This document shows positions 10,196 through 44,670 of a DNA stretch of 64,000 bases, piece by piece. Numbering within the stretch: the stretch's first letter is position 1; every line of letters begins with the position of its first letter. Source of the DNA: Pteria penguin (Eukaryota; Mollusca; Bivalvia; Pterioida; Pteriidae). Location of the stretch: contig CM068589.1 in the NCBI GenBank assembly GCA_035048485.1, positions 3,970,501 to 4,034,500 on the forward strand, read 5' to 3'. The position numbers were made by a program, and so were the translations under genes. The notes beneath the pieces were generated by a model, which saw only the letters and a program-made list of their open reading frames with translations, had not been told where the DNA came from and did not search any database.

Positions 10196-10339
10196 ATTGC
10201 CCTCTATTTCTTATAAACAACACATCTGACTTCCACCTCGAGTTATGGAGTTGCACATACAATACACCATTATATAGTAGTATATGCAGGGATAAATTAC
10301 TTCCAGATACGCCTTACTCAACTAACAAACTTTACAAAC
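10196..10339 (+). CDS. gene A ectodomain exon (homologue of gene B exon 2)
   Basis: 144 nt, phase 1 at both ends. The acceptor is tctcgtttcag and the donor gtaagt. It encodes CPLFLINNTSDF, then LWSCTYN, SICRDKLLPDTPYS and NKLYK. Gene B exon 2 matches at CP.F.INNTS, at the internal Cys, at IC.D.LLP and at Y..N.LYK. Confidence 0.78.
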
Positions 10340-41800: not shown

Positions 41801-44670
41801 CGTTGCAAAGATCAAAATTTCTTTGCCCCGTATCAGGCAGATGCCGTCACTATATACGTAAAATATTCGTGGTGGGACGTAAAACAAACATCAATCTTTA
41901 CTGTAAATTCTGTCGGCTATTTTATTGTGGACTTAGAATTCTTTATACAGTAGTGGAGAGTTTCACTGATGTTTAATTTCAACGGTATTTTGAATATGCT
42001 ATTCATCAAGTTTTCTACACAGATAAAATTTAGAGTTTTAAAATACAATCTCAAATGTTTTTTCATTACTTCCCATTCTTATTTTGAGGAACAAACGTGA
42101 AATATACCCAATACTAATGATATCAATAACAATAATAAAAATAACAACCACAACAACAACAACAACAATAACAATAAAAATAATAATAACAATGATAATG
42201 AGGATGGTGATCAGTAGTAGCACTAAATTGGTACATAGTTTTTGGAATTTAAAACACTCTTTATTTTCATGTACATGTACCTTATTCTCTAAAATCCTTT
42301 TGTTGTAGACACAAGAGAAGAAATAGAATACTTAATTATCATCACAACTGCTATTGGTAAAGAATAGAACGATTTCAATAGGCCAGATCAGTTTTTAGTC
42401 TTTTCAAATATTTGTACATCATCTTTTCAAATTCTTTACGGTATCAAAAATGAGAATTACAAATGCCCGTTACAGACGAAATGTTTGAAAATGATAAAAG
42501 TTTGTAGCAAAACTATGGTGTTACAAGCAAGGTGACAGACAACAGGAAATAACATCAATTTTGGCCTATTGAAAGCTATATGTAACATAAAGTGATCACA
42601 ATGCGAATTATGTTTCATTATATCCATCAAACTGAATTTAATTTCTCACTTGTACCTTCATACTTATACTTTGTTATATGGTCATTCATGCAGTATCTTT
42701 TCTGTATGATTTTAACAATTATGGCCGTTCAACTAAAAACATTCCTTTCTGTTTTTGTGACACTATTTGTGTGTGTGTGTGTGTGTGTGTGTGTGTGTGT
42801 GTGTGTGTGTGTGTGTGTGTGTGTGTGTGTGTGTGTGAAGTTGTGTTACAACTGCAGTACATAATTGCACATGCAAGAGTCGCATAGCACGAGTCACTTC
42901 CGCTTTCCACGTTTTGGGTTTTATATGCCTTGCAAATGATATTGCCTCGTAAGATCAAATTAACAGAAAATTAAGTTGAAAAAATTAAAAGAAATGAAAG
43001 TGTTTATGGTACAAAACCACGTAGTACAAAGTCTGATTTATACGAAGTATGTTTTTCAGTGACAGCTTGTGATTATTTCTAAAACCTAAGGAGTATTTCC
43101 CTAATGCATAACTTAGATGGGTTCTCGGGCTTTTACTTCTAGATCAATTTTGTAATTTCTTTATTTTTTTCTAAAAAAGTATACTTTGGATTTGCACGTT
43201 TTCCACCTTGAGCATCAATTAAATATACATATGGTGCACTAAACATAACCATGCCAGAGGAAGATGCATAAATCTGTACTTTACAGACTGATAGGACATA
43301 GTCTACTTCAGTTATAAATTATATATCAGGAAGCGGACAATCCCCAGCTAGAGAGTCAAAATGAGATTTTATGCAATCGGTATGTCCTATATGAAAATGG
43401 TGGGGAAATACGTTTCTAATATCTGCAATAATATCTTTTTGTAGTTACCTGCGTAACTACCTGCCTAAGTATCGCATTGTCTTTAATCATCTCTGTCTTC
43501 TACCGTTGTCACAGAGAGAGGTAAGCGCTCGTTATATTAATATACTAGTAATTGCTTTCTTTTACTGGTGTTTTTTTTTTAATGTTTTCCTTCGTTTTTG
43601 TAAATAAAGGTGGAACCGAATAACCATATACATTGAATGTGTTTGAATTACAAATTTAAGTATATGTATCTGTTAAAATTGTCGAAGCTAAGACGAAACC
43701 TATTAATGTAAACAACTGATATGGATAAATCATCTGTGACATTTGTTAATACACAAGCTCGTCACATGTCTTCACAGGAATTTTATTTCGTACGTGACAA
43801 TGCACGGGCATGTCATGTAATGGACTGCAGTAAATGATATATCAAACAATGAACAGTAGTGTCTTCTATAAGTTACAACACGTTAGAAACAGGAACCATT
43901 CTGAAAACCTTAGAGAAAGCTAGAGTGATCAAAGGTCCTATACCAAGAAACATCTTCTGAAGACCGACCATAATCCCCCATGATGCAACAGGCTTTAATA
44001 CTCCTTAATTTAAATGTTCCTGAAATCAAATGCAGCTGATAACAAGAAAGATAACTCTAATTTATTTTATCTTTTCACAGAAAGGCTTATGTTTAAAGGT
44101 TTTGATTATAAAAAAAATCCCCAAAACTATAAATCAGTCATTTTACAGACTTTCTAGGAGTTTGGCATACGTATAAAACAATCATTTCATGAATTTTGTC
44201 CAATATCGCGATTAATCAGCGTTAGATACCTACCGAGGGTCTCCAGTTTATAAGTCTTGGCTTGTGTAGGCTATAACAATCTTTCAAATACTTTTTTAGT
44301 ATAGAATATATTAATAAGTGTATTTTCCAGAGGCAAGGATAGGAGCTGTAACTACATAGAGCAATCGTTAAATGTTGACAGGATGAATGAAAATAAGGGA
44401 AATTATGAAAATGTCTACGAAGAAATCATTGATCATGATTCTTCTGTACGTATCACTAATGTAAGTATTGAGGATGCAGGGTCATACAATGTGAGCCCCG
44501 AGGATCACGATACCAATGAGAATAAAGAACCTGTCAATGAAAACAAGTGTGGGAAAAAGGAAAACGGACAATACGATGAAGATACTGGAAACAAAAATGG
44601 GAATGAGACTACCTGGTTATGCAATGGAGACATAGACACAAAAGATGAGAGGGAGAATAACGGACGTTGA
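35737..44670 (+). CDS. gene B: putative single-pass receptor-like membrane protein (seven exons seen)
   Basis: A paralogue of gene A. Exons are 35737-35865, 37380-37514, 38862-38907, 40731-40819, 42309-42356, 43445-43520 and 44331-44670, all GT-AG. The frame is open across all joins for 286 codons to TGA. Exon 1 adds a Cys module absent from gene A (YNCAVP, YHCILTYYGK, EELCLKEW). Exons 2-3 share four Cys with gene A and have NNTS and NNTI glycosylation sites. Exon 4 is a Thr-rich stalk, exons 5-6 a transmembrane helix (YLIIITTAIG, then VTCVTTCLSIALSLIISVFY) ending in basic RCHRER, and exon 7 a 112-residue acidic tail with NYENVYEEI. The tail suggests tyrosine-phosphorylation signalling, by inference. 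Introns contain a mariner relic, the 1.04-kb palindrome element, SINEs and a GT repeat. The first exon with signal peptide was not found. The family is unknown to me. Confidence 0.8.
36025..36303 (+). pseudogene. mariner transposase C-terminal relic in gene B intron
   Basis: In one frame with two stops it reads AHTSQVAMSAVTKCSLEVL, then LNLFPDLKSYIRGKN, NEGVRDAVYD and YFEKIQKLEQKWRKCMR. This matches the end of mariner transposases: the HTS/VAM helix, LFP.LK..LRG and W.KC. The block corresponding to YSPDLAPSD is mutated. Only the C-terminal third is left and no terminal repeats were seen. Confidence 0.82.
37380..37514 (+). CDS. gene B exon 2 (Cys module)
   Basis: 135 nt, phase 1 in and out, acceptor catacttttcag, donor gtaagt. 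It encodes CPIFDINNTSYLEWNC, then NNTICEDSLLPKKSYLS and NELYK. The gene A equivalent is 10196-10339. Confidence 0.82.
37747..38785. mobile_element. non-autonomous DNA element with GTTAAC palindromes, copy 2
   Basis: A 1039-bp copy of the element at 22059-23108, in the same orientation and also bounded by TA. The ends are cagtgaggtgcagtcctaac and, on the right, gttaggactgcacccatctg. Palindromes are denser than in copy 1 (for example cgcgttaacgcg near 38641 and 38665). It sits in the intron between gene B exons 2 and 3. There is no ORF of its own; the short Arg-rich ORFs in the GC zones are by-products. Confidence 0.9.
38862..38907 (+). CDS. gene B exon 3 (46 nt)
   Basis: Acceptor tatatttttgcag, donor gtaagt, phase 1 in and phase 2 out. 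It encodes PVCFLGQNIEKTIV. Length and phase are identical to the gene A exon at 10918. Confidence 0.82.
39405..39665 (-). mobile_element. full-length tRNA-derived SINE, minus orientation
   Basis: On the minus strand the head has ggtatcgtgctggacttctg and ggggttcgagtcccgctc (B box). The common body tgtctttcggatgagactgg follows, then caggcagatgccgtcatcat and a tail gtggtgtgacgttaaac. It lies in a gene B intron. Confidence 0.85.
40461..40474 (+). repeat. C14 homopolymer
   Basis: A run of 14 C between A-rich stretches (aaaacaaaac repeats follow). Confidence 0.95.
40731..40819 (+). CDS. gene B exon 4 (stalk)
   Basis: 89 nt, phase 2 in and phase 1 out, acceptor attctaacttcag, donor gtaatg. It encodes ANDTDPFNTTQVVTTLGQ and DTTETGF, a Thr-rich, glycosylatable stalk without Cys. 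Confidence 0.72.
41025..41110. repeat. dispersed repeat, GTGAGACCAGGTGCCC family
   Basis: aaggtgagaccaggtgccca, then aacacccgtcgcaaac, matches 15830, 30530 and 47455. It lies in a gene B intron. Confidence 0.65.
41203..41357. repeat. dispersed repeat, inverted copy of 19798-19966
   Basis: gaaattccggcgtcggacac through ggtcaggtcccaagatatcg is the reverse complement of the copy at 19798. Confidence 0.75.
41630..41897 (+). mobile_element. full-length tRNA-derived SINE, plus orientation
   Basis: The head is gccggcgtgacctagtggta (A box) and cagggttcgagtcccgctct (B box). The body has ctgtctttcggatgagacag, gtgtcgtgttatgcatggca and caggcagatgccgtcactat. The end is gtgggacgtaaaacaaacat. It is the best-preserved copy in the window and lies in a gene B intron. 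Confidence 0.88.
42309..42356 (+). CDS. gene B exon 5 (outer half of TM helix)
   Basis: 48 nt, acceptor tccttttgttgtag, donor gtaaag. It encodes DTREEIEYLIIITTAIG. It has the same length and phase as gene A exon 14520-14567. Here the donor is not followed by a minisatellite. Confidence 0.8.
42769..42837 (+). repeat. (GT)n microsatellite
   Basis: About 34 GT units in a gene B intron. CVCVCV and HTHTHT ORFs across it are artefacts. Confidence 0.96.
43445..43520 (+). CDS. gene B exon 6 (inner half of TM helix)
   Basis: 76 nt, acceptor atatctttttgtag, donor gtaagc, phase 1 in and phase 2 out. It encodes VTCVTTCLSIALSLIISVFY and RCHRER. Confidence 0.8.
44331..44670 (+). CDS. gene B last exon, cytoplasmic tail
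   Basis: 340 nt from acceptor tgtattttccag to TGA at 44668-44670. It encodes an Asn/Glu/Asp/Lys-rich tail with CNYIEQ, NYENVYEEIIDH, GSYNVSPED and GQYDED. YENV and YEEI are four residues apart in the pattern of SH2-domain ligands. The second half is low-complexity (NENK, NGNE). Confidence 0.8.

Follow-up and report, generated by a model that had tools for sequence, protein, structure and literature searches.

The stretch of DNA analysed here, called the window, comprises 64,000 nucleotides of the bivalve Pteria penguin (GenBank assembly GCA_035048485.1, contig CM068589.1, positions 3,970,501 to 4,034,500), and positions are counted from its first letter. Two paralogous genes, gene 1 and gene 2, were reconstructed on its forward strand, each from six short exons that together encode a predicted single-pass membrane protein. 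The reality of these genes is well supported, and we infer a function from features of the sequence. The gene models are as follows.

10196-16982, forward strand: gene 1, six exons
10196..10339, forward strand: gene 1 exon 1, phase 1-1, 144 nt; ectodomain with three cysteines and INNTS
10918..10963, forward strand: gene 1 exon 2, phase 1-2, 46 nt; PVCFLGQ with the fourth cysteine
12375..12493, forward strand: gene 1 exon 3, phase 2-1, 119 nt; stalk, placed by its phases
14520..14567, forward strand: gene 1 exon 4, phase 1-1, 48 nt; first half of the predicted transmembrane helix
16142..16208, forward strand: gene 1 exon 5, phase 1-2, 67 nt; second half of the helix
16739..16982, forward strand: gene 1 exon 6, phase 2-stop, 244 nt; cytoplasmic tail with NVYHEI, stop codon TAA
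37380-44670, forward strand: gene 2, six exons
37380..37514, forward strand: gene 2 exon 1, phase 1-1, 135 nt
38862..38907, forward strand: gene 2 exon 2, phase 1-2, 46 nt
40731..40819, forward strand: gene 2 exon 3, phase 2-1, 89 nt; stalk with two N-glycosylation sequons
42309..42356, forward strand: gene 2 exon 4, phase 1-1, 48 nt; first half of the helix
43445..43520, forward strand: gene 2 exon 5, phase 1-2, 76 nt; second half of the helix
44331..44670, forward strand: gene 2 exon 6, phase 2-stop, 340 nt; tail with NVYEEI, stop codon TGA

The exon borders read AG at all 12 acceptors and GT at all 10 donors, and the phase series is 1-1, 1-2, 2-1, 1-1, 1-2, 2-stop in both genes. The spliced frames of gene 1 and gene 2 are open for 222 and 244 residues, respectively, no stop, frameshift or broken splice site was found across the six exons of gene 1, and poly(A)-like AATAAA signals lie 3' of both stop codons (17028 in gene 1, 45162 in gene 2). 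The initial annotation had proposed six exons per gene in the same order and with the same intron phases, and the borders, open frames and identical phases agree with it. The exon pairs that it gave as equal in length do measure 46 nt (exon 2) and 48 nt (exon 4) in both genes. The lengths of exons 1, 3, 5, and 6 differ by 9, 30, 9, and 96 nt, respectively, which are multiples of 3 as it had stated, but this follows from the equal phases and is no separate evidence.

Pairwise alignment gave the two proteins an identity of 39% as the aligner counts it, with the densest agreement toward the N-terminal end. In both, a four-cysteine ectodomain core leads into a stalk and a helix, behind which come basic residues and the tail. 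INNTS (with overlapping N-glycosylation sequons), PVCFLGQ, the four ectodomain cysteines and NVY-x-EI, all noted at the outset as shared, are present in both.

Conservation of exons 1 and 2

In tblastn searches of the whole window, exons 1 and 2 of gene 1 matched exons 1 and 2 of gene 2 with expectation values (E) of 1.4e-11 and 2.4e-4, respectively, and apart from the self match each was the sole match below E 1. Each similarity was reached in none of 5000 shuffles. All open candidate exons were then listed under permissive splice-site scores, which gave 76 and 82 candidates in the two regions, and all 717 phase-matched pairs were compared. The exon 1 and exon 2 pairs scored 126 and 51, respectively, against 36 and 33 for the top false pairs of the forward strands. 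Of the pairs from the three combinations used as strand controls, one from a dispersed repeat scored 75 (with fragments at 44 and 44), and all others scored 30 or less. Longer variants of gene 2 exons 1 and 2, using the alternative same-phase upstream acceptors at 37368 and 38823, tied in score with the exon 1 and 2 pairs, so the exact starts of these two exons rest on the pairing with gene 1.

When the two regions were compared by blastn at E 1e-3, there were four matches: one each for exons 1 and 2, and two that stem from copies of a single dispersed repeat. This exon-confined conservation is the pattern expected of old coding duplicates. Exons 1 and 2 keep 34 identical residues over 60 aligned codons, with 54 of 180 nucleotides changed. 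The nonsynonymous and synonymous rates (dN/dS) were 0.28/1.04 by NG86 over the 60 codons. Bootstrapping gave a median ratio of 0.27 and, at the 97.5% limit, 0.57, with dS saturated in 16 of the 500 replicates; as many residues were kept in only 3 of 2000 neutral simulations. With 53 of these codons, a first run yielded 0.24/0.89 (NG86) and 0.25/0.73 (YN00). These results indicate that exons 1 and 2 are under purifying selection, with a dN/dS of about 0.27. The initial annotation had suggested comparing the ectodomain with the tail in this respect; the ectodomain gave the value above, and the contrast failed because the stalk and tail were saturated in the first run and yielded no estimate.

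Exons 3 to 6, the minisatellite and the upstream exons

The exon 3, 4, and 5 pairs ranked 114th, 98th, and 109th, respectively, among the 717 phase-matched pairs, and thus could not be recovered from residues alone. A chain test was therefore applied, which called for an ordered 2-1 exon, 1-1 exon, 1-2 exon and 2-stop exon of 200-450 nt, with the junction of the 1-1 and 1-2 exons inside a hydrophobic 19-mer of mean 2.2 or more. The splice cut-offs of this test lay slightly under the score of the weakest site in the gene models. This choice favours the models, but the controls were subject to the same cut-offs. The gene 2 region held one chain only, that of the proposed exons. The gene 1 region held 20 chains, of which the proposed one was highest in hydropathy (3.35); 16 of the other 19 use a pseudo-exon within the minisatellite described below, and all 19 share with the gene model either exon 4 or the 3' end of exon 5. 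A chain arose in none of 100 dinucleotide shuffles of each region, and no chain was found on the reverse strand of either region. The 19-residue hydropathy maxima (3.35 in gene 1, 2.33 in gene 2) both overlap the exon 4/5 junction, in line with the claim that the helix is split at the same place. In both genes, a single predicted hydrophobic helix, long enough to cross the membrane, is encoded across this junction. The support for exons 3-5 is anatomical and does not come from residue similarity.

The following feature touches exon 4 of gene 1.

14547..15292, forward strand: minisatellite of 21.3 copies of a 35-bp unit, beginning inside gene 1 exon 4 and repeating its splice donor

The array begins 21 nt before the end of exon 4, and nearly all of its units copy, with variants, the exon 4 border ATATCCACTGTAG|GTAAGG. 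It contains 19 GGTAA sites including that of exon 4 (18 besides), 10 of them within exact TAGGTAAGG. At the corresponding place in gene 2, there is no array. It looks like an expansion seeded by the splice site of exon 4 itself. Beyond its border, the frame of exon 4 stays open until a TAG whose last base is 14602, shortly ahead of the second donor; a transcript spliced at that donor would encode a protein truncated in the helix. If this next donor is used, the balance between membrane-bound and truncated protein could depend on the array.

At least one exon precedes exon 1, because exon 1 begins in phase 1. Two readings of one upstream piece were considered for gene 2.

35643-35865, forward strand: candidate gene 2 first exon, with an ATG, a signal-like hydrophobic segment, then a four-cysteine stretch and a phase 1 donor
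35737-35865, forward strand: alternative internal exon in its place, phase 1-1; 35817 is a further possible donor

In the 20 kb before gene 2, 35643-35865 was the only signal-like first exon with a GTRAG donor, and under still looser rules it alone on the whole plus strand had at least three later cysteines. The internal version, 35737-35865, was the one phase 1-1 exon with at least two cysteines that passed the cut-offs in these 20 kb, if a piece at 23200 similar to a dispersed repeat is set aside. Judged by its sequence, 35643-35865 is a likely candidate for the first exon of gene 2, with a putative signal peptide. The earlier models had no N-terminus or signal peptide, and a candidate is now available for gene 2 alone. 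The first-exon candidates of gene 1 all lack cysteines (for example, 8743-8800), and its 5' end may lie outside the window.

Family searches and interpretation

Neither protein, whole or in pieces, had a Pfam match at the cut-off. The best match of gene 1 was Orf78 over the stalk and helix (18.5 bits, cut-off 29.4). For gene 2, the best matches, likewise below threshold, were SCIMP (PF15050) over the helix and proximal tail (16.6 bits, cut-off 27, E 0.011) and the V-set in the tail (18.7 bits, 19.3 bits by pieces, cut-off 26). The latter covers 44386-44502, which contains RITNVSIEDAGSYNV, resembling the F strand of an immunoglobulin (Ig) V-set domain. An Ig domain in this tail was rejected, as the match is below the cut-off, lies behind the helix and has no counterpart in gene 1. 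In the ectodomain, the sequence comparison with Pfam recognised no Ig domain. NCBIfam gave only sub-threshold matches for gene 1 and none for gene 2, and four sequence searches of the PDB gave nothing credible (best E 0.56, 0.94, none, and 1.5, respectively).

Among 5.8 billion proteins, a set in which spliced animal proteins may be sparse, a profile of the two proteins gave 1478 candidates and none at E 10, and an exon 1 profile gave no candidate. As a positive control, a reverse-transcriptase open reading frame (ORF) of a long interspersed nuclear element (LINE) in the window found 98 relatives in this set, which shows that ORFs of this type are represented in it. No homologue was found in viral contigs, where one of the two patterns used in one search spans the junction of exons 1 and 2 and has no possible match in genomic DNA. 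Prokaryote contigs, searched with the same limit on one of the two patterns, gave none either, and this negative says little because the LINE control also found nothing there. The mean predicted local distance difference test (pLDDT) values of exon 1 and the candidate first exon were 54.9 and 37.9, respectively, too low for a fold search. Among the literature entries listed, none described this family or a donor-repeating array. The statement that the ectodomain fits no named family has thus held within Pfam, NCBIfam, the PDB and the 5.8-billion-protein set; the family may well be listed as "uncharacterized protein" in other animal databases.

Phosphorylated YEEI is the textbook ligand of Src-family SH2 domains, and the tail motif is NVYEEI in gene 2 and NVYHEI, a less exact YEEI-like site, in gene 1. 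In general, ectodomain exons of phase 1-1 suit animal surface proteins assembled by exon shuffling. We consider it probable that gene 1 and gene 2 arose by tandem duplication and encode an orphan single-pass type I receptor, in which SH2 proteins dock at the tyrosine of NVY(E/H)EI. The small ectodomain, disulfide-bonded and N-glycosylated, would bind a ligand or partner, and the divergent stalk would keep it off the membrane. On ligation, the tyrosine could be phosphorylated and dock an SH2 protein, most simply a Src-family kinase because of the YEEI preference given above. After the duplication, the binding module would have stayed constrained while the stalk and tail drifted. Translation of gene 2 probably begins at 35643, and a signal peptide and a further cysteine-rich segment would then stand at the N-terminus of its protein. 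We think it quite unlikely that the pair represents an undescribed receptor family defined by a four-cysteine ectodomain and a Src-SH2 docking tail, with a splice-donor minisatellite in one copy. Overall, this is a sound gene discovery whose likely identity is ordinary: an orphan membrane-protein paralogue pair in a repeat-rich animal genome.

Several results weigh against the proposed receptor pair. The shuffle p values were 0.52 for exon 3, 0.06 for exon 4, 0.07 for exon 5, and 0.30 for the tail (0.02 for exons 4 and 5 joined), and the best local alignment of the tails bypasses NVY-x-EI. No homologue was found in Pfam, NCBIfam, the PDB or the 5.8-billion-protein set, and the structure predictions yielded no fold. 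In the 10 kb upstream of gene 1, no cysteine-containing first exon was found. Loose rules gave nine first-exon candidates on the minus strand, none of the nine with a GTRAG donor; seven of them fall in the repeat-coded stretches 274-1845 and 7661-8657. The candidate first exon was rejected as a homologue of exon 1 (p 0.97 and 0.86 in shuffles).

Because exons 3-5 and the tail are singly not above shuffles, and false pairs reach 36 on the forward strands and 75, a dispersed repeat, on the reverse strands, one may ask whether the resemblance is due to chance or repeats. We regard this as extremely improbable, since exons 1 and 2 occur below E 1 at two sites of the window only, their scores of 126 and 51 compare with at most 30 on the control strands once the repeat pair and both of its fragments are set aside, and the chain test gave 0/100. 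The initial annotation had called the whole pattern very hard to get by chance; this stands for exons 1-2 and for the chain, and does not extend to exons 3-5 and the tail taken singly. Its broader claim, that these are true multi-exon genes produced by duplication and coding for a membrane protein with one pass, is supported by exons 1-2, the phases and the chain test. The same genes might encode an adhesion, decoy or structural surface protein with an incidental tail tyrosine, which we find somewhat unlikely. The similarity of the tails is not above chance, with just one short motif common to both, but this NVY-x-EI stands 31 and 32 residues (counted in the two genes) past the first arginine behind the helix in tails that have otherwise diverged.

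It is possible, but rather unlikely, that both genes are longer and that the six exons form their 3' portions, with more ectodomain exons upstream, those of gene 1 perhaps beyond the window. The phase 1 start of exon 1 points to at least one more exon, for which gene 2 has one candidate and gene 1 none with cysteines, but the 20 kb before gene 2 offered a single passing phase 1-1 exon with at least two cysteines besides the repeat-like piece, and looser rules brought in just two others (30036 and 31323). It is also unlikely that one of the two genes is a decaying or non-expressed duplicate. The likelier of them would be gene 1, which has no convincing first exon within 10 kb upstream and a minisatellite of repeated donors across its exon 4 border, but its six exons are intact, and exons 1-2 are constrained, although an estimate from two sequences cannot assign the constraint to a branch.

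Some known surface proteins resemble the proposed receptor pair in part. For example, oyster CgIgIT2 is described as a receptor with five Ig domains outside and a tyrosine motif in the tail (PMC11999971). It likewise is an animal protein of the cell surface that crosses the membrane once and has a tyrosine-based motif in the tail, but the pair here has no recognised Ig domain and no paired immunoreceptor tyrosine-based activation motif (ITAM) in its tails. An ITAM has two YxxL/I 6-12 residues apart, and each tail reads as one YxxI. The Hydractinia Alr family, with 41 members of the immunoglobulin superfamily reported, also consists of clustered, divergent paralogous surface-protein genes (PMC11999971), whereas here two copies lie in the window and the ectodomain has no Ig match. 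The transmembrane adaptor SCIMP is similar through its weak match to the gene 2 helix and proximal tail, which is below the cut-off, and gene 1 is unlisted for it at E up to 10.

Fast-diverging animal receptor genes with short exons can be recovered from raw sequence through phase-matched paralogy, and ORF listing and family searches are blind to them. If this family is tied to immunity or self-recognition, a new ectodomain type would be added.

Surroundings of the genes

Two tRNA-like matches (11179-11238 and 11406-11478, reverse strand; Rfam, and tRNA-Arg by ARAGORN) lie in intron 2 of gene 1 and are possibly short interspersed repeats. A 1.05-kb repeat pair of 81% identity occupies 22057-23110 and 37745-38787, and the second copy is inside intron 1 of gene 2. 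Between the genes, a 106-residue open frame with several cysteines (27482-27802, forward strand) had no Pfam match and may be an exon of another gene. A GIY-YIG endonuclease ORF (24529-24921, reverse strand, Pfam E 8e-9) is perhaps part of a Penelope-like element, and an Rfam SECIS_1 match (32272-32335, reverse strand, 37.5 bits, above the gathering score) lies in repeat-rich DNA. LINE-like open frames in several pieces (2096-5922, reverse strand) had sub-threshold Pfam matches to endonuclease and reverse-transcriptase zinc-binding domains, and one piece was the control with 98 relatives. Three head-to-tail copies of about 4.19 kb with 99.8% identity (46716-59262) reflect either a tandem triplication of very recent date or an issue of the assembly.

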